Below are positions 2 to 8,072 of a DNA stretch of 64,000 nucleotides, in pieces. Location: positions 1,729,312 to 1,793,311 of the forward strand of contig NZ_CP152020.1 in the NCBI RefSeq assembly GCF_038624605.1. The letters are read 5' to 3'. How positions within the stretch are numbered: the stretch's first letter is position 1; each line of letters starts with the position of its first letter. Source of the stretch: Psychrobacillus sp. FSL K6-4046. GTDB lineage: Bacteria > Bacillota > Bacilli > Bacillales_A > Planococcaceae. Both the position numbers and the translations under genes were made by a program. The notes below the pieces were generated by a model. It had not been told where the DNA came from. It ran no database searches and worked only from the letters and a program-made list of their open reading frames with translations.

Positions 2-1999
2 GGTGCTGGTAACGGTGGATATGCACTTCTCAAGTTAATAGAGCAGGCAGATTACCTTCAGGTTACTGCTATTGTTGATATTAATGAAGAGGCTCCTGGA
101 ATGATCTACGCTAAACAACAAAATATACCAACCTATTCGGAATGGAAAAGCTTGTTAAGCAATGATATTCAAATCATTATTGATGTGACTGGTCGAAAGG
201 AAGTTTTCTATGAATTACTTCAAAATAGGCCGGCTACAGCTGTACTGATTCCTGGCGAGATAGCCAACTTAATTGTTACATTAATAGAAGAGAAAAACAA
301 ATATATTCAAATTATTGATCAGAAAAAAGCATTACAGGAACTCATTTTTAATTCTATTGAAGAAGGAATGATTGGCATTAATAGCCAAGGTATTGTTAAC
401 TTTTTCAATAAGAGTGCCGAAAGAATGACCTCAATTCTTGTTGAGGATGCTCTAGGTAAGCATGTAGCAGATGTAATCTCTTTAAGTGAATTACCGAGAA
501 TATTTGAAACTGGCAAGATTGAGCTTCACAAAGAACTTACTCTTGAAAGCGGTACCAAAATAGTCACTTCTCGATACCCGATGGTAAACGAAGAAGGAAA
601 AAGAATTGGTGCTTTTGCGGTTTTTAAGGATATCTCTGAGGTCGTTCGTCTTGCAGAGGAAGTTACTAACCTTACGGAAATTCAAAAAATGCTCGAGGCT
701 ATCATTTACTCAAGTGATGATGCCATTTCGGTAGTGGATGAAGAAGGAAAAGGTATATTGATAAATCCCGCATACACTCGTATCACTGGATTTAGTGAAG
801 AAGAGGTAATAGGAAAGCCGGCTACTGCCGACATTTCGGAGGGCGAAAGTATACATTTAAAGGTCCTTCAATCTAAAAAACCTATTAGAGGTGTCAATCT
901 TCGAGTTGGAAAACAAGAAAAGGACGTTATTGTTAATGTAGCTCCAATTATTGTGAATAACCAGTTAAAGGGTAGTGTCGGTGTTATTCACGATATGACT
1001 GAAATGCGAGGTTTAATGAAGGAATTAGATCGCGCAAGAACTATTATCAGAACACTAGAATCAACTTATTCATTTGAAGACATAGTCGGGACTTCAGATG
1101 AGATTAATTTAGCAATAGAACAAGCTAAACTAGCAGCTAACGTTCCAATTACCGTCCTTTTAAGGGGAGAGGTCGGTGCAGGAAAGGATTTGTTTGCTCA
1201 TGCCATTCATGGAGAAAGTGGGCGTTCAAGCTATCCTTTTATCCGAGTTAATTGCAGTTCTTTAGAGGAACATCTTTTAGAACGTGAATTATTTGGATAT
1301 GAGGAAGATGGCATCAAATATCCTGGTAAATTAGAAGAAGCATATAAAGGCACGGTTTTCTTAGATGAAGTTGGTGAGTTGACTAAGAAAACTCAAGCTA
1401 AGCTCCTACAGGTTTTGCGAGATAATATTATCATACCTATCGGGGCCACAACCCCGAAGCAGGTTGATGTTCGTATCATTGCTGCAAGTAGTCTTAACTT
1501 GGAAAAGGCAATGAGAGATGGCACCTTTAGGGAGGATTTCTATTTTCAGTTAAATAGAATGCCGATTTATATACCTTCTTTACGACAAAGAAAAAAGGAT
1601 ATTCCGCTTCTTGCAGAACGATTGCTCGTTAAACTTAACCAAGAGTTTGGGAGAAACATTGAAGGATTTTCAGAGGAAGCTCTCGAAACCTTATGTCTTT
1701 ACGATTGGCCAGGTAATGTCAGAGAGTTAGAGAATATTATTAGCCGCTCCATGATTTTTCTTCAATCGAATGAACGATTAGTAGATGAACAGCATTTACC
1801 AAAATCGATGCTCCAGTTGTCACAAGGGGAGGATGAAGATTCGATTGCTCCACTTGCGGACCAAATGGATGAAATGGAGAAAAGAGTACTCGCCCAAGCG
1901 CTTAAAATTTGCGATGGCAATAAGTCACAAGCAGCTAAAAAGTTAAGTATTTCTCTTCGCTCATTATATTACAAGCTAGAAAAACACAATCTGGTGTAA
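2..1999 (+). CDS. bkdR: BkdR-like enhancer-binding regulator of branched-chain amino acid catabolism (5' partial)
   Basis: The frame is open from base 2, so the ATG at 101 is internal and the gene starts before the window. The visible N-terminus opens with a Rossmann-like GAGNGG motif and the strand IVDINE, suggesting a dinucleotide-binding-like sensor domain. Two PAS-type domains follow (about 320-650 and 690-1010). Next comes an AAA+ domain with Walker A GEVGAGKD (about 1165-1188), Walker B TVFLDEVGE and the WPGNVRELEN box. A Fis-type helix-turn-helix ends the protein (about 1890-1995). Between ELFGYE and TVFLDE, where sigma-54 activators carry GAFTGA, the sequence reads EEDGIKYPGKLEEAYKG, so the loop is absent. 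It sits directly upstream of bcd-lpdV-bkdAA-bkdAB-bkdB, as BkdR does for the B. subtilis operon. The family assignment is firm; whether it works with sigma-54 is doubtful. Confidence 0.88.
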   Translation, partial: GAGNGGYALLKLIEQADYLQVTAIVDINEEAPGMIYAKQQNIPTYSEWKSLLSNDIQIIIDVTGRKEVFYELLQNRPATAVLIPGEIANLIVTLIEEKNKYIQIIDQKKALQELIFNSIEEGMIGINSQGIVNFFNKSAERMTSILVEDALGKHVADVISLSELPRIFETGKIELHKELTLESGTKIVTSRYPMVNEEGKRIGAFAVFKDISEVVRLAEEVTNLTEIQKMLEAIIYSSDDAISVVDEEGKGILINPAYTRITGFSEEEVIGKPATADISEGESIHLKVLQSKKPIRGVNLRVGKQEKDVIVNVAPIIVNNQLKGSVGVIHDMTEMRGLMKELDRARTIIRTLESTYSFEDIVGTSDEINLAIEQAKLAANVPITVLLRGEVGAGKDLFAHAIHGESGRSSYPFIRVNCSSLEEHLLERELFGYEEDGIKYPGKLEEAYKGTVFLDEVGELTKKTQAKLLQVLRDNIIIPIGATTPKQVDVRIIAASSLNLEKAMRDGTFREDFYFQLNRMPIYIPSLRQRKKDIPLLAERLLVKLNQEFGRNIEGFSEEALETLCLYDWPGNVRELENIISRSMIFLQSNERLVDEQHLPKSMLQLSQGEDEDSIAPLADQMDEMEKRVLAQALKICDGNKSQAAKKLSISLRSLYYKLEKHNLV

Positions 2000-2009
2000 A
2001 AGGAAAGTG

Positions 2010-2038
2010 TTCACGTAAATAGGGGTATTTACTATAAA
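2010..2038 (+). promoter_or_regulatory. Putative sigma-A promoter of bcd
   Basis: A -35-like TTCACG (2010-2015) and a -10-like TATAAA (2033-2038) are separated by exactly 17 bp in the bkdR-bcd gap. No -24/-12 (TGGCAC-N5-TTGC) element is visible in this gap. The position, about 45 bases before the bcd start, fits a promoter. Assigned by eye only. Confidence 0.5.
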
Positions 2039-2081
2039 TCATTTATACAAGCACCAATTTAACTACTAGGAGGAACTACAA

Positions 2082-3176
2082 ATGGAAATCTTTAAATATA
2101 TGGAAACTTATGATTATGAACAATTAGTATTTTGCCAAGACAAAACTTCAGGACTTAAAGCGATTATTGCTATTCATGACACTACATTAGGACCGGCTCT
2201 TGGTGGTACTCGTATGTGGAATTATGCTTCGGAAGAAGAAGCAATTGAGGATGCTCTTCGTCTTGCTAAAGGTATGACTTATAAAAATGCGGCAGCAGGA
2301 CTTAATCTTGGTGGAGGAAAAACTGTAATTATTGGTGATCCATTAAAAGATAAAAATGAAGAAATGTTCCGTGCATTTGGACGTTTCATCCAGGGGTTAA
2401 ATGGACGTTATATTACAGCGGAAGATGTAGGCACAACAGTTGCAGATATGGACCTTATCCATGAAGAAACAAACTACGTAACTGGTATTTCAGAGGCGTT
2501 TGGTTCTTCAGGTAACCCATCTCCTGTAACAGCTTATGGCGTATACGTTGGGATGAAAGCTGCAGCTAAAGAAGCATTTGGTTCTGATTCATTAGAAGGA
2601 AAAACAATTGCCGTACAAGGTGTTGGGAATGTGGCTTATACGCTATGTGAATACCTACATGAAGAAGGCGCAAAGTTAATCGTTGCTGATATTAACCAAA
2701 AATCAGTGGATCGTGCAGTAGAAGCATTCGGTGCAGTACAAGTCGGTACAGATGAAATTTACTCACAGGACGTAGATATCTTTGCTCCTTGTGCACTTGG
2801 AGCAATTATTAACGACGCTACGATTCCACAGTTGAAAGCTAAAGTAATTGCTGGTTCAGCTAACAACCAATTGAAAGATACAACACATGGCGACATGATT
2901 CATGAAATGGGTATCGTTTATGCACCAGATTATGTTATTAACTCTGGTGGAGTGATCAATGTAGCAGATGAATTATATGGTTACAACCATGACCGTGCGA
3001 TGAAACGCGTGGCAGGTATCTATGACAAAATTGAACGTATTTTTGAAATTTCAAAACGTGACGGGATTCCAACTTATGTTGCTGCTGACCGTTTAGCTGA
3101 AGAGCGTATCGCGCGTGTAAGCAAATCTCGTAGTCAATTTCTACAAAACGGAAAACATATTTTAAATGGCCGTTAA
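2082..3176 (+). CDS. bcd: Leucine dehydrogenase
   Basis: NAD-dependent oxidative deamination of leucine, valine and isoleucine to 2-oxo acids, the first step feeding the BKD complex. The 364-residue length is normal for the family. The Glu/Leu/Phe/Val dehydrogenase signature is present with catalytic K80 in GLNLGGGKT and substrate-site K68. The Rossmann motif VQGVGNVAY lies at about 178-186. The start is preceded by AGGAGG (2068-2073). It is the first gene after bkdR. A hairpin follows it rather than ptb or buk. Confidence 0.96.
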
Positions 3177-3203
3177 TCAATAATTATATCCTAGCAGCAA
3201 ATT

Positions 3204-3243
3204 GGCCGACTTTATAGATTCCTTGTAAAGCCGGCCTTCTTAT
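3204..3243 (+). terminator. Hairpin between bcd and lpdV (terminator or attenuator)
   Basis: Arms 3204-3214 and 3226-3236 pair over 11 bp with one mismatch and an 11-base loop, followed by a short T-rich tail. Because it lies inside the operon it may only lower readthrough from bcd into lpdV. Confidence 0.55.
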
Positions 3244-3262
3244 TTGGAAGGAGACGATTCAT

Positions 3263-4693
3263 TTGGCAAAAGAATACGACGTAGTAATTATTGGTGGAGG
3301 AACTGGTGGGTATGTAGCTGCCATTCGCTCAGCTCAACTAGGTTTAAAAACAGCAATTGTTGAAAAAGGCAAACTAGGTGGTACATGTTTACATAAAGGC
3401 TGTATCCCAAGTAAAGCATTACTTCGAAGTGCCGAGGTTTTTTCTACTACTAAAAATCATGCAGCCGACTTTGGTGTAAATACAAGTGAAGTAACATTAG
3501 ATTTTAGTAGAGTGCAAGCCCGAAAGGAATCCATTGTGGACCAATTATTCCAAGGAGTTCAGGGGTTGATGAAAAAAGGCAAGATTGATGTGTATGAAGG
3601 AACAGGCAGAATGCTCGGGCCATCTATTTTCTCTCCGTCTCCTGGGGGGACCGTCTCGGTTGAGATGAACAATGGTGAAGAAAATGAAATGCTTATCCCG
3701 AAAAATGTAGTCATTGCCACTGGTTCACGCCCTCGCTCTTTGCCAGGTTTGTCAATAGATGGATCTCTAGTGATGACTTCGGATGAAGCGTTAGTAATGA
3801 CAGAGCTACCTAAGTCTATTCTCATAGTTGGTGGAGGAGTAATCGGTATAGAATGGGCTTCCATGCTAAACGACTTTGGAGTAGAAGTAACAGTAATCGA
3901 ATACGCTGATCGAATTATTCCTACGGAAGACAAAGATATTTCTAAAGAAATGCAAAAGCTTCTAGGGAAAAAGGGGATCACATTTGCAACAAATGCAAAA
4001 GTACTTCCAGATACTTTAGATACAGCAGACAACGTAGTTACAATATCTGCTGAAGTTAATGGGGAAACTCAATCATTTACTGCTGAGAAAATGCTTGTAT
4101 CTGTTGGTAGACAAGCAAACACAGAAGGTATTGGTATAGAAAATACAGATATCGTGATTGAAAATGGATTTATTCAGGTTTCTGACACATTTCAAACAAA
4201 AGAATCTCATATATATGCCATTGGCGATGTAATTGGTGGTCTTCAATTGGCACATGTAGCAAGCCATGAGGGGATTACAGCGATAGAGCATATTGCTGGA
4301 GAAGACATTATTCCAATGGATTACAATCTTGTATCTCGCTGTATTTATGCAAGTCCTGAAAGCTCAAGTGTAGGAATTACAGAGCAACAGGCAAGAGAAA
4401 AGGGATTTGATGTAAAGGTAGGCAAGTTTTCATTTAAAGCAATTGGTAAGGCTCTTGTATACGGTGAATCGGATGGCTTTGTTAAAATTGTGGCCGATAA
4501 AGCAACCAATGATATTTTAGGAGTTCATATGATTGGACCTCACGTCACAGATATGATTTCAGAGGCTGGTTTGGCTATGGTTCTAGATGCTACTCCTTGG
4601 GAAATGGCACATACAATTCATCCACATCCAACCTTAAGTGAAATAATGGGAGAAGCAGCGTTAGCTGTTGATGGTAAAGCGATTCATATGTAA
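3263..4693 (+). CDS. lpdV: Dihydrolipoyl dehydrogenase (E3) of the branched-chain 2-oxo acid dehydrogenase complex
   Basis: FAD-dependent E3 subunit that reoxidises dihydrolipoyl-E2 and reduces NAD. The FAD motif GGGTGGYVAAIR is at 11-22, the redox-active pair is C42/C47 in GGTCLHKGCIPSK, the NAD motif is VGGGVIGIEWAS, and the C-terminal HPHPTLSE holds the catalytic His/Glu dyad (H455/E460). Translation starts at a TTG with GGAAGGAG (3246-3253) nine bases upstream. Length 476, normal. Its place before bkdAA identifies it as the BKD-specific E3 rather than the pyruvate dehydrogenase E3. Confidence 0.95.
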   Translation: MAKEYDVVIIGGGTGGYVAAIRSAQLGLKTAIVEKGKLGGTCLHKGCIPSKALLRSAEVFSTTKNHAADFGVNTSEVTLDFSRVQARKESIVDQLFQGVQGLMKKGKIDVYEGTGRMLGPSIFSPSPGGTVSVEMNNGEENEMLIPKNVVIATGSRPRSLPGLSIDGSLVMTSDEALVMTELPKSILIVGGGVIGIEWASMLNDFGVEVTVIEYADRIIPTEDKDISKEMQKLLGKKGITFATNAKVLPDTLDTADNVVTISAEVNGETQSFTAEKMLVSVGRQANTEGIGIENTDIVIENGFIQVSDTFQTKESHIYAIGDVIGGLQLAHVASHEGITAIEHIAGEDIIPMDYNLVSRCIYASPESSSVGITEQQAREKGFDVKVGKFSFKAIGKALVYGESDGFVKIVADKATNDILGVHMIGPHVTDMISEAGLAMVLDATPWEMAHTIHPHPTLSEIMGEAALAVDGKAIHM

Positions 4694-4711
4694 AAAAAGG
4701 GGGATCTCTAT

Positions 4712-5722
4712 ATGACAAACAATCGTCATGAGGAATTAGGGTTATCAAATGAAGATGTATTAAAAATGTTCGAGACGATGTTAATGGCGCGCCGTATTGA
4801 TGAGCGTATGTGGCTGTTAAACCGTGCAGGTAAAATTCCATTCGTTATCTCTTGTCAGGGACAAGAGGCAGCTCAGGTAGGGGCGGCATTTGCTTTAGAT
4901 AATACAAAGGATTATATCGCTCCTTACTATCGAGATATGGGGGTAGTTTTACATTTCGGTATGACTCCAAAAGATTTAATGCTATCAGCATTTGCTAAAG
5001 CAGAGGATCCAAACTCTGGCGGTCGTCAAATGCCAGGACATTTTGGGCAAAAGAAAAATCGTATTTTAACAGGCTCATCACCAGTTACAACGCAGCTACC
5101 TCATGCTGTTGGTGTTGCTTTAGCTGCCAAGATTGAAAAGAAAGACTTCATTACCTTTGTTACATTAGGAGAAGGTTCATCTAACCAAGGAGATTTCCAT
5201 GAAGGCTTAAATTTTGCAGGAGTACATCAATTACCTTGTATAACAATGGTGGAAAACAATAAATATGCGATATCAGTTCCTTTTGAGCGTCAGGTTGCTA
5301 GTAAAAATGTTGCAGACCGTGCGAGTAGCTACGGAATGCCAGGCGTAACGGTGGATGGTAAAGATCCAATCGAGGTATACAGAGTAGTAAAAGAAGCTGC
5401 TGACCGCGCAAGAAACGGAGAAGGACCAAGTCTTATAGAAGCCGTTACTTACCGTTTGACAGCTCATTCATCAGATGACGATGATAGACAATACCGTACG
5501 GCAGAAGACATTGCAGAAGGAAAAGCTTTAGATCCTATTATTACATTTGCAAAGTATTTAAGAGATTTAGATATTCTTTCTACCGATTTAGAAAAAGAGA
5601 TCAATGACCGCATTATGAAGGAAGTAAATGAGGCAACTGATTATGCAGAGGCTGCACCATATGCTGCTCCAGAAGATGCATTAAAACATGTTTATGCTGA
5701 AAAAGACGGGGGGAACGCATAA
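4712..5722 (+). CDS. bkdAA: Branched-chain 2-oxo acid dehydrogenase E1 alpha subunit
   Basis: Thiamine-diphosphate-dependent decarboxylase subunit acting on 2-oxoisovalerate, 2-oxoisocaproate and 3-methyl-2-oxovalerate. The 336-residue protein carries the ThDP signature region GEGSSNQGDFHEG ... VENNKYAIS (GEG where many relatives have GDG) and the conserved loop TYRLTAHSSDDD. The start follows AAAAAGGGGGA. The stop codon overlaps the bkdAB start by one base (TAATG), so the two E1 subunits are translationally coupled. Confidence 0.95.
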   Translation: MTNNRHEELGLSNEDVLKMFETMLMARRIDERMWLLNRAGKIPFVISCQGQEAAQVGAAFALDNTKDYIAPYYRDMGVVLHFGMTPKDLMLSAFAKAEDPNSGGRQMPGHFGQKKNRILTGSSPVTTQLPHAVGVALAAKIEKKDFITFVTLGEGSSNQGDFHEGLNFAGVHQLPCITMVENNKYAISVPFERQVASKNVADRASSYGMPGVTVDGKDPIEVYRVVKEAADRARNGEGPSLIEAVTYRLTAHSSDDDDRQYRTAEDIAEGKALDPIITFAKYLRDLDILSTDLEKEINDRIMKEVNEATDYAEAAPYAAPEDALKHVYAEKDGGNA

Positions 5723-6705
5723 TGGCAATCATGTCTTATATTGATGCAATAACACTTGCAATGAAGGAAGAAATGACCCGCGATGAGCGCGTTTTCGTTC
5801 TTGGGGAAGATGTTGGTCGTAAGGGTGGCGTGTTCAAAGCAACAAACGGACTTTACGATGAATTCGGTGAATATAGAGTGTTAGATACACCACTTGCAGA
5901 ATCAGCTATTGCGGGTGTAGGAATCGGAGCTGCCATGTATGGTCTTCGTCCAATCGCAGAAATGCAATTTGCAGATTTTATCATGCCTGCAGTTAACCAA
6001 ATTATCTCGGAGGCATCTCGTATTCGCTACCGCTCTAACAATGACTGGACTTGTCCAATCGTATTTCGTGCTCCTTTTGGTGGGGGTATTCATGGTGCTC
6101 TCTATCACTCTCAATCTGTAGAGGCTATCTTTGCTAACCAGCCAGGTCTAAAAATAGTTATTCCTTCTACTCCGTATGATGCGAAAGGATTGTTAAAAGC
6201 AGCTATTCGTGATGAGGACCCGGTTATGTTTTTTGAACACAAGCGTGCTTATCGCCTTATTAAAGGAGAAGTTCCGGACGACGATTATACGATTGAAATT
6301 GGTAAGGCAGACGTAAAGCGTGAAGGGGAAGATATTACGGTTATTACTTATGGATTAGCTGTCCATTTCGCACTTCAAGCTGCAGAACGCTTAGAAAAAG
6401 ACGGTATTTCAGCTCATATTTTAGATTTACGTACAATTTACCCGTTAGACAAAGATTCAATTATAGAAGCTGCTTCTAAAACAGGTAAAGTATTACTTGT
6501 AACGGAGGATAACAAAGAAGGTAGTATTATTAGTGAGGTAGCAGCGATTATTGCAGAAAATTGCTTGTTTGACTTAGATGCTCCGATTATGCGCCTTGCA
6601 GGTCCTGATGTTCCAGCTATGCCATATGCGCCTACCATGGAAAAATTCTTTATGATTAATCCAGACAAAGTCGAAAAAGCAATGCGTGAGCTGGCGGAAT
6701 ATTAA
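5722..6705 (+). CDS. bkdAB: Branched-chain 2-oxo acid dehydrogenase E1 beta subunit
   Basis: Partner of the E1 alpha subunit in the heterotetrameric E1, 327 residues. Recognisable transketolase pyrimidine-binding features include FVLGEDVGRKGGVFKAT, DTPLAESAIAGVGIG and the H-rich stretch around GGGIHGALYHSQS. The C-terminal transketolase domain holds LDLRTIYPLD and GPDVPAMPYAP. The ATG overlaps the bkdAA stop codon by one base. Confidence 0.95.
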   Translation: MAIMSYIDAITLAMKEEMTRDERVFVLGEDVGRKGGVFKATNGLYDEFGEYRVLDTPLAESAIAGVGIGAAMYGLRPIAEMQFADFIMPAVNQIISEASRIRYRSNNDWTCPIVFRAPFGGGIHGALYHSQSVEAIFANQPGLKIVIPSTPYDAKGLLKAAIRDEDPVMFFEHKRAYRLIKGEVPDDDYTIEIGKADVKREGEDITVITYGLAVHFALQAAERLEKDGISAHILDLRTIYPLDKDSIIEAASKTGKVLLVTEDNKEGSIISEVAAIIAENCLFDLDAPIMRLAGPDVPAMPYAPTMEKFFMINPDKVEKAMRELAEY

Positions 6706-6755
6706 GCTAATGGAAAAACGCCTAAGCAAATTTGATCTATAAAGGAGGAACCCAT

Positions 6756-8072
6756 ATGGCACTAGAACAAATTAAAATGCCTCAGCTTGGGGAAAGTGTA
6801 ACCGAGGGGACAATCGAAAAATGGTTAGTAAAACCAGGCGATCATGTCAATAAGTATGACGCACTTGCTGAGGTTAATACAGATAAAGTTACTGCAGAAG
6901 TACCTTCTTCCTTCACGGGAGTTATTAAAGAACTAATTGCCAATGAAGGAGATACACTTGCAGTAGGAGAAATCGTTTGTACGATTGAAACAGAAGGAGG
7001 CTCTTCTGAAGAAATCGTAGAGGTAAAGGAAGCTGCGCCTGAAGAACCAACTGCTGAAACGGTTAAACCTGCTGAGGTGAATAAGCATGCACAGTCAGCG
7101 CCAGCAGACCGTGCAAAAGGAGCAAAAGCTCGTTACTCACCTGCAGTTCTTAAACTTTCACAGGAGCATGATATCGACCTTTCTTTAGTCACAGGTACTG
7201 GTAATGAAGGTAGAATTACTCGTAAAGATTTACTTAAAATAATAGAAAGTGGAGACATTCCACAAGCAGCTCCAGCTAGCGAGGCTAAGGTGGAGGAAAA
7301 AGCGGCTATAGCTTCTGCTCCTACTAACACTCAAACAAAGCCAGCTGCTATTAATGTCCCAGTCGGAGCAGGTGACATCGAAATTCCAGTAACTGGTGTC
7401 CGTAAAGCAATTGCTGCAAATATGCTTCGTAGTAAGCATGAGGCACCTCACGCTTGGACGATGATTGAAGTAGATGTGACGAACCTAGTACAGTACCGTG
7501 ATTCGATTAAAAATGAATTTAAACAAAAAGAAGGCTTTAATGTTACTTATTTTGCATTCTTTGTGAAAGCAGTTGCACAAGCATTAAAAGAATTTCCAAT
7601 GATGAATTCTATGTGGGCTGGCGACAAAATTATCCAAAAGAAAGACATCAATATTTCAATTGCAGTTGCAACAGATGATGCCTTATTTGTTCCGGTAATT
7701 AAGCATGCAGACGAAAAGACGATTAAAGGCATTGCTCGAGAAGTAATGGAGCTAGCTGGAAAAGTCCGCTCTGGTAAGCTAAAATCTGATGAAATGCAAG
7801 GCGGTACCTTCACTGTAAACAATACAGGTTCATTTGGCTCTGTTCAGTCGATGGGGATCATTAACTATCCACAAGCAGCAATTCTTCAGGTAGAATCTAT
7901 TGTAAAACGACCAGTAATTATGGAGGGCGGCATGATTGCAGCTAGAGATATGGTGAATCTATGCTTATCTCTTGATCATCGTGTATTAGATGGCCTAGTT
8001 TGTGGTCGTTTCTTGGCTCGTGTAAAAGAAATATTAGAAAACATTTCGAAAGAAAATACTTCAGTATACTAA
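6756..8072 (+). CDS. bkdB: Branched-chain 2-oxo acid dehydrogenase E2 (lipoamide acyltransferase)
   Basis: Core acyltransferase of the BKD complex, moving acyl groups from lipoyl to CoA. Domain order: one lipoyl domain (lipoyl lysine K44 in VNTDKVTAEV), an Ala/Pro/Glu-rich linker, an E1/E3-binding domain (ARYSPAVLKLSQEHDIDL ... GRITRKDLL), a second linker, and the catalytic domain ending in SLDHRVLDG with H408/D412. The start is the ATG at 6756, with AAAGGAGG at 6741-6748; an upstream in-frame TTG lacks such a site. 438 residues. Last gene of the bkd operon. Confidence 0.95.
   Translation: MALEQIKMPQLGESVTEGTIEKWLVKPGDHVNKYDALAEVNTDKVTAEVPSSFTGVIKELIANEGDTLAVGEIVCTIETEGGSSEEIVEVKEAAPEEPTAETVKPAEVNKHAQSAPADRAKGAKARYSPAVLKLSQEHDIDLSLVTGTGNEGRITRKDLLKIIESGDIPQAAPASEAKVEEKAAIASAPTNTQTKPAAINVPVGAGDIEIPVTGVRKAIAANMLRSKHEAPHAWTMIEVDVTNLVQYRDSIKNEFKQKEGFNVTYFAFFVKAVAQALKEFPMMNSMWAGDKIIQKKDINISIAVATDDALFVPVIKHADEKTIKGIAREVMELAGKVRSGKLKSDEMQGGTFTVNNTGSFGSVQSMGIINYPQAAILQVESIVKRPVIMEGGMIAARDMVNLCLSLDHRVLDGLVCGRFLARVKEILENISKENTSVY

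Follow-up and report, generated by a model that had tools for sequence, protein, structure and literature searches.

Sigma-54 activators depend on an ATP-driven machine, and the departure of a gene from the sigma-54 system is, to our knowledge, known from only a few finished cases. In Bacillus, BkdR is the regulator that switches on the breakdown of branched-chain amino acids. The BkdR proteins of B. subtilis and B. thuringiensis are members of this class: their loop reads GAFTGA or GAFSGA, and they act together with SigL at a −24/−12 promoter (PMC4428206, PMC3162934). Several activators with a missing or defective GAFTGA have also been described. TyrR, VpsR, DhaR, HupR and YplP have been listed as such (PMC3162934), and the NtrC proteins of Caulobacter and Rhodobacter, whose L1 loop is deleted (by eight residues in Caulobacter), act at sigma-70 promoters (PMC10274813).

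The regulator analyzed here lies at the start of a 64,000-nucleotide stretch of DNA, hereafter the window (G000:C1:1729312-1793311), taken from the complete 3.89-Mb genome of a Psychrobacillus strain, code G000. It is orthologous to the BkdR of B. subtilis and B. thuringiensis, has the same domain order and a similar HTH helix, and likewise adjoins the bcd/bkd genes; indeed, BkdR proteins of other Bacilli families align with it end to end. Unlike theirs, however, its system is without the loop, the promoter element and the sigma factor. TyrR of E. coli is closest in idea, being an NtrC-type protein without GAFTGA, but it responds to different signals and acts on different targets. An earlier note on this DNA had likened the regulator to TyrR; the likeness stands as an analogy and not as kinship, since host BkdR scores 224.6 bits against the TyrR model, whose cut-off is 576. 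NtrC of Caulobacter and Rhodobacter offers a nearer parallel, as the ortholog of a sigma-54 activator that has lost L1 by deletion. Yet Caulobacter retains sigma-54-dependent genes and activators, its NtrC is a two-component regulator, and no graded series matched by promoter loss is described for either protein. VpsR, DhaR, HupR and YplP differ in not being BkdR and in showing no family-wide paired loss of the promoter element. Thus, GAFTGA-less activators are already known, and what is new is the graded, repeated and promoter-matched loss in one ortholog. Neither a GAFTGA-less BkdR nor such a graded loss was found in the literature searched, which covered few subscription journals.

The regulator and its altered loop

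The features of the regulator are as follows.

2..1999, + strand: bkdR, the BkdR ortholog; its 5′ end lies outside the window, and the full-length protein is ~63% identical to a GAFTGA-bearing ortholog
1166..1189, + strand: Walker A, GEVGAGKD (sequence, alignment)
1301..1351, + strand: altered L1 loop, EEDGIKYPGKLEEAYKG in place of GAFTGAxxGGKxG, a 6-residue deletion (ortholog alignment)
1355..1369, + strand: Walker B, VFLDE (sequence, alignment)
1484..1492, + strand: sensor I, ATN changed to ASS (alignment)
1529..1549, + strand: arginine-finger segment REDFYFQ; Arg 510 is kept, and the second Arg has given way to Gln 516, which does not vary across the Psychrobacillus alignment
1865..1984, + strand: HTH_8 with recognition helix SLRSLYYKLEK, almost unchanged in all BkdR orthologs

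Its domain set, its full-length similarity to Bacillaceae-type BkdR and its bcd/bkd neighborhood mark the protein as a BkdR. An N-terminal Rossmann-like segment is followed by two PAS domains, an AAA+ domain (Sigma54_activat plus lid) and a Fis-type HTH_8. The N-terminal part (window 2-300, ILIVGAGNGGYALLKLIEQ...) resembles a Rossmann nucleotide-binding fold placed ahead of the PAS domains and is a possible cofactor sensor; it gave no Pfam match at 0.001. An AlphaFold model of the window BkdR, built with 11 close relatives, reached a mean pLDDT of 48 and was set aside.

The earlier note held that GAFTGA is lost between ELFGxE and Walker B whereas both Walker motifs are kept, and it quoted the letters correctly on each point. 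The interval from ELFG to Walker B reads YEEDGIKYPGKLEEAYKG, 6 residues shorter than the usual GAFTGAxxGGKxG form; the L1 loop itself is ELFGYEEDGIKYPGKLEEAYKG, with the 6 residues deleted across GAFTGA, and residues 429-456 are ELFGYEEDGIKYPGKLEEAYKGTVFLDE. In the ortholog alignment, six residues of the GAFTGAxxGGK stretch are missing and the remainder is substituted. Alignment with ZraR, CapR/DmpR and NifA chains places the gap at the same L1 position. The deletion is not an assembly error, because another genome of the host species has exactly this loop and the 6-residue deletion is common to all 17 sampled Psychrobacillus. The BkdR of Psychrobacillus sp. BL-248-WT-3 is 100% identical to that of the host. 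Among the hallmarks of sigma-54 activators, Walker A and B are present in host BkdR, and GAFTGA, the full pair of arginine fingers, an intact sensor I, a −24/−12 promoter at the target and a sigma-54 in the same genome are lacking.

Purifying selection on the gene is strong: dN/dS was 0.042-0.086 in Psychrobacillus pairs and spanned ~0.04-0.09 whether computed over the entire gene or over just its AAA+ domain. Judged by this selection, bkdR in Psychrobacillus is still a working gene and not a relic, and it shows a trait of the GAFTGA-less NtrC-type class, in that L1 has lost its motif although selection maintains the rest of the protein. In P. insolitus (L075, G057), a frameshift splits bkdR into two frames.

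Sigma-54, loop and promoter across the family

The Sigma54_DBD profile found no match in the complete host genome and was positive in sigma-54-bearing control genomes, B. subtilis included. Sigma54_CBD gave just one match there, of 20.9 bits, below the cut-off and in a 207-aa frame. A whole-genome profile search returned BkdR as the sole host protein with a full-length PF00158 (Sigma54_activat) domain. With sigma-54 missing from the genome and no full-length activator-type protein in it other than BkdR, BkdR cannot act through sigma-54 in this organism.

We compared 94 BkdR orthologs, 70 from the host family and 24 from other Bacilli families, designating genera by the codes of the genome search (g1, g2 and so on; g1 is Psychrobacillus). 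A −24/−12 site was called where at least 10 of 11 consensus positions matched near the end of bkdR, a score that 2.3% of shuffled regions reach. GAFSGA, the form found in B. subtilis BkdR, was counted as functional (PMC3162934). Outside the host family, every one of the 24 orthologs has GAFTGA or GAFSGA and a −24/−12 element between the end of bkdR and the target operon, and searches recovered sigma-54 in 23 of these genomes. Inside the family, g5, g17 and part of g11 keep an intact loop, and g1 (17/17), g2, g3, g4, g7, g12 and the rest of g11 have an altered one. Overall, 34 of 36 genes with an intact GAF(T/S)GA loop have the site (33 by regional scan, plus L056, where it lies 318 bp downstream), against none of 58 with an altered loop. 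The two states thus agree in 92 of 94 orthologs, an association that Fisher's p of 3e-22 overstates, as relatives are not independent and the tree holds few independent contrasts.

The alterations take several forms. Six residues are deleted in g1 and 10 in g2, where the deletion extends into ELFGY; g7 carries same-length substitutions (GAIPGV, GSVYGL, GATAES, GVVPFA), and g11 has point changes (DAFAGA, DAFVGA, GAFVGA). The motor erodes stepwise as well. Walker motifs, sensor I and both arginine fingers persist in common forms in g7, g12, g4 and g11; Psychrobacillus carries Gln at the second arginine finger and ASS in place of ATN at sensor I; the arginine fingers are gone in the aligned g3 rows displayed; and g2 BkdR has, by alignment, lost L1, the pre-sensor-I loop and both arginine fingers. 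Both intact-loop genes without a −24/−12 site belong to g11 genomes without rpoN, one of which shows clear decay of the orthologous site (TGCCACATTTTGTGCT). Altered-loop g11 genomes that lack rpoN have a site eroded at the same place (AGGTACGTTTTATGCT). The g11 genomes with half-decayed sites look like intermediates.

A BkdR tree computed without the loop columns joined g5 with g17 (intact), g7 and g12 with g11, and g1 and g2 with g3 and g4, the last join being weak (83/49). Forcing all altered-loop rows into one clade was rejected, with a log-likelihood 108 lower. If only losses are allowed, the tree implies at least four loop alterations within the host family: in g1-g4, in g7+g12, in the G011/G072/G030 group of g11, and in G100 of g11, which was placed in a separate analysis. 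A parsimony count of three changes, which allows GAFTGA to be regained, was rejected, since the motif and promoter of the intact-loop genes are those of the outgroup. The alignment with relatives proposed in the earlier note finds the loop intact in all 24 orthologs outside the family and repeatedly altered inside it. The note's broader suggestion, that sigma-54 no longer controls through this regulator, has strong support from the missing sigma-54 gene, the joint loss of loop and −24/−12 element, and the concordance of the two states.

The relation to rpoN is less direct. Some sigma-54 gene is present in 11 of 17 Psychrobacillus, so loop loss is not simply due to having no sigma-54. The idea that loop loss simply followed rpoN loss does not hold generally and was given up, since some rpoN persists in 27 genomes with an altered loop; total loss of sigma-54 is therefore not required for the loop to change. 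In a quick tree whose root is not fixed, the rpoN genes of the host family (L198-L237) split like a mosaic into at least three divergent lineages, whose distribution cuts across genera; a genome has up to three copies. The lineage that groups with the SigL of other Bacilli (at least 44% identity to the query; all other rpoN at most 34%, short fragments apart) occurs in only five g5 and g11 genomes, all with intact BkdR, and in no altered-loop genome. A refined form of the rule, loss of this g5/g11-type SigL, fits all but g17, whose four genomes combine an intact loop with another rpoN lineage. We infer that BkdR was set free when the resident SigL disappeared, an order of events offered as a hypothesis, and that the rpoN genes now found in many Psychrobacillus serve other circuits. 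Most of the other activators in Psychrobacillus with sigma-54 retain GAFTGA. Three Psychrobacillus genomes without rpoN (G041, G023, G078) encode a second activator-type protein of ~450 aa (PAS-AAA+-HTH; L148, L149, L163), also without GAFTGA (ELFGVFDHTTGTIRNGRFKQADKGTLYIDE), possibly another regulator gone from sigma-54.

Promoters and dyads at the bkdR-bcd locus

The following features lie downstream of bkdR or, just outside the window, at its promoter.

2000..2081, + strand: bkdR-bcd gap, 82 bp, without a −24/−12 element, TGCAAN4TTGCA dyad or terminator-like site
2010..2038, + strand: candidate sigma-A promoter, TTCACG (2010-2015), 17-bp spacer, TATAAA (2033-2038), 9/12 against TTGACA/TATAAT
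2015..2032, no strand assigned: perfect dyad GTAAATA-GGGG-TATTTAC between the two hexamers; its AGGGGTWTT core occurs in most Psychrobacillus
2082..3176, + strand: bcd, leucine dehydrogenase, the first gene after bkdR
3263..8072, + strand: branched-chain keto-acid dehydrogenase genes (translations), which we take from established family knowledge to be lpd, bkdAA, bkdAB and bkdB
G000:C1:1729252-1729265: first TGCAAN4TTGCA dyad of the bkdR promoter, 10 bp downstream of the −10
G000:C1:1729283-1729296: second TGCAAN4TTGCA dyad of the bkdR promoter

As the earlier note stated, bcd has no −24/−12 element upstream: the best match in the 82-bp gap reaches 7 of 11 positions, and none was seen nearby in the window. 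The sigma-A-like promoter that it proposed instead, TTCACG-17-TATAAA, fared less well. Its letters are there, but 25% of shuffles of the same 82 bp contain a promoter as good, and a stricter consensus scan of window positions 1900-3400 reported no site at bcd. Across Psychrobacillus, the −10 is retained in most and the −35 only loosely. TTCAA..-16/17-TATAWA with a AGGGGTATT core is found in ~12 of 17 and is missing from the others; some species have TACATGGGGATGTA copies in the gap in place of the GGGG-centered dyad. This partly conserved element suggests that bcd may have a promoter of its own, differently regulated. A search of the G000 genome found no second exact copy of the dyad and no regulon of GGGG-centered dyads.

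The best-supported sigma-A promoter at the locus, ahead of the bcd candidate, is that of bkdR itself, TTGTCA-17-TATGAT, whose −10 is followed 10 bp later by a BkdR-type dyad. It matches the consensus at 10 of 12 positions, and 5.5% of shuffles do as well; its weight comes from conservation across genera, as the single sequence is only mildly above chance. The dyad follows the bkdR −10 by 10-12 bp in g1, g2, g3, g4 and g11 and by ~16 bp in g5. In Psychrobacillus, dyads stand only at this promoter, two of them in most species, and the first is perfect in 13 of 16 unbroken bkdR genes. In G000, bkdR is preceded at a distance of ~600 bp by a transposase-like frame (L012:3-869), which falls just before the window.

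In GAFTGA-type genomes, the TGCAAN4TTGCA dyad occupies the enhancer position upstream of −24/−12, often in tandem with ~20 bp between centers. In g7 and g12, two or three tandem dyads are kept at this old enhancer position upstream of ptb; the −24/−12 element is gone, and g7 has an extended −10-like TGTTTTAAT there. From this distribution, we predict that TGCAAN4TTGCA is the BkdR site. Copies in the rest of G000 are at chance level (5, vs 4 in the reversed control). The gap before ptb in g11 and g7 loci (L028-L055) also contains a cre-like element (e.g. AAAGCGTTTTCA), placed after the BkdR dyads and ahead of the promoter, which hints at catabolite control; it was not seen in the Psychrobacillus bkdR-bcd gap. 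In g2, the sister genus of Psychrobacillus, and in g3 and g4, the gap after bkdR measures only ~12-47 bp, with hardly room for a promoter before the next gene, and the operons are therefore almost certainly read through from bkdR.

Candidate modes of action

The reading that we prefer, at a probability of roughly 0.55, is that the protein is a true BkdR, free of sigma-54, which represses its own sigma-A promoter and thereby governs bcd and bkd by read-through. The ancestral BkdR would have had two roles, repressing its own sigma-A promoter and activating the operon with sigma-54. Once the resident SigL-type sigma-54 of the lineage had presumably been lost, L1 and the −24/−12 element of the target operon would no longer have been maintained and would have disappeared together, with selection still acting on the sensing part, on the motifs for ATP binding and on the helix that contacts DNA. 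The repressor half would then remain, and the operon in g1-g4 would fall under it through read-through. BkdR bound to the dyad 10 bp downstream of the bkdR −10 would hold the promoter down until a branched-chain keto-acid or amino-acid signal arrives, and bcd and the bkd genes would be transcribed from there across the 82-bp gap, in which no terminator-like site was seen, and a weak internal promoter may contribute.

BkdR might instead have left sigma-54 and stayed an activator, binding upstream and recruiting or stabilizing RNA polymerase with sigma-A, much as TyrR or R. capsulatus NtrC does. GAFTGA-less NtrC and VpsR do act at sigma-70 promoters (PMC10274813), and continued activation suits g7 and g12 better, given their altered loops, the tandem dyads kept upstream of ptb and, in g7, the extended −10-like sequence. 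In Psychrobacillus, however, no dyad stands upstream of bcd, and the conserved dyads downstream of the bkdR −10 sit in a repressor position; we regard this alternative as unlikely, though worth serious thought. Less probable still is that BkdR controls itself only and that bcd is driven from its own sigma-A promoter at 2010-2038 by another protein bound to GTAAATA-GGGG-TATTTAC. The dyad fits exactly between −35 and −10 and the arrangement recurs in many Psychrobacillus, but the promoter is at chance level in the single sequence and absent from the remaining species, and the lack of a second exact copy in G000 leaves a dedicated binder with no regulon behind it.

Two further explanations are very improbable. 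The altered arginine finger, sensor I and L1, and the split gene of P. insolitus, could be taken to mean that bkdR is a decaying relic with no role left, but the low dN/dS of the whole gene and of its AAA+ domain speaks against decay, as do the retained Walker motifs, recognition helix and promoter dyad. Rated a shade lower again is contact with sigma-54 through some other surface in those species that have one. The sigma-54 genes of Psychrobacillus would permit it, but they belong to other lineages, 28-33% identical to the g5/g11 type, no sigma-54-bearing Psychrobacillus has a −24/−12 site at the target, and for the host genome, which has no sigma-54, the idea is refuted.

Taken across the family, the preferred reading extends to a wider claim, to which we give slightly less than even odds: that BkdR was converted from a sigma-54 activator to a sigma-A regulator at least four times in one family, by coordinated loss of L1 and −24/−12 after loss of the resident sigma-54, with repression at the ancestral autoregulatory operator and read-through into the operon, and that relatives in which rpoN is gone and GAFTGA and the −24/−12 site are half decayed would be intermediates. 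One caution follows for annotation, in that annotated sigma-54 activators can occur in genomes without sigma-54. More broadly, bkdR in the host family makes up a natural gradient that runs from full dependence on sigma-54 to freedom from it. Loop, promoter and sigma factor change state in step along this series, which makes the order of the steps testable.
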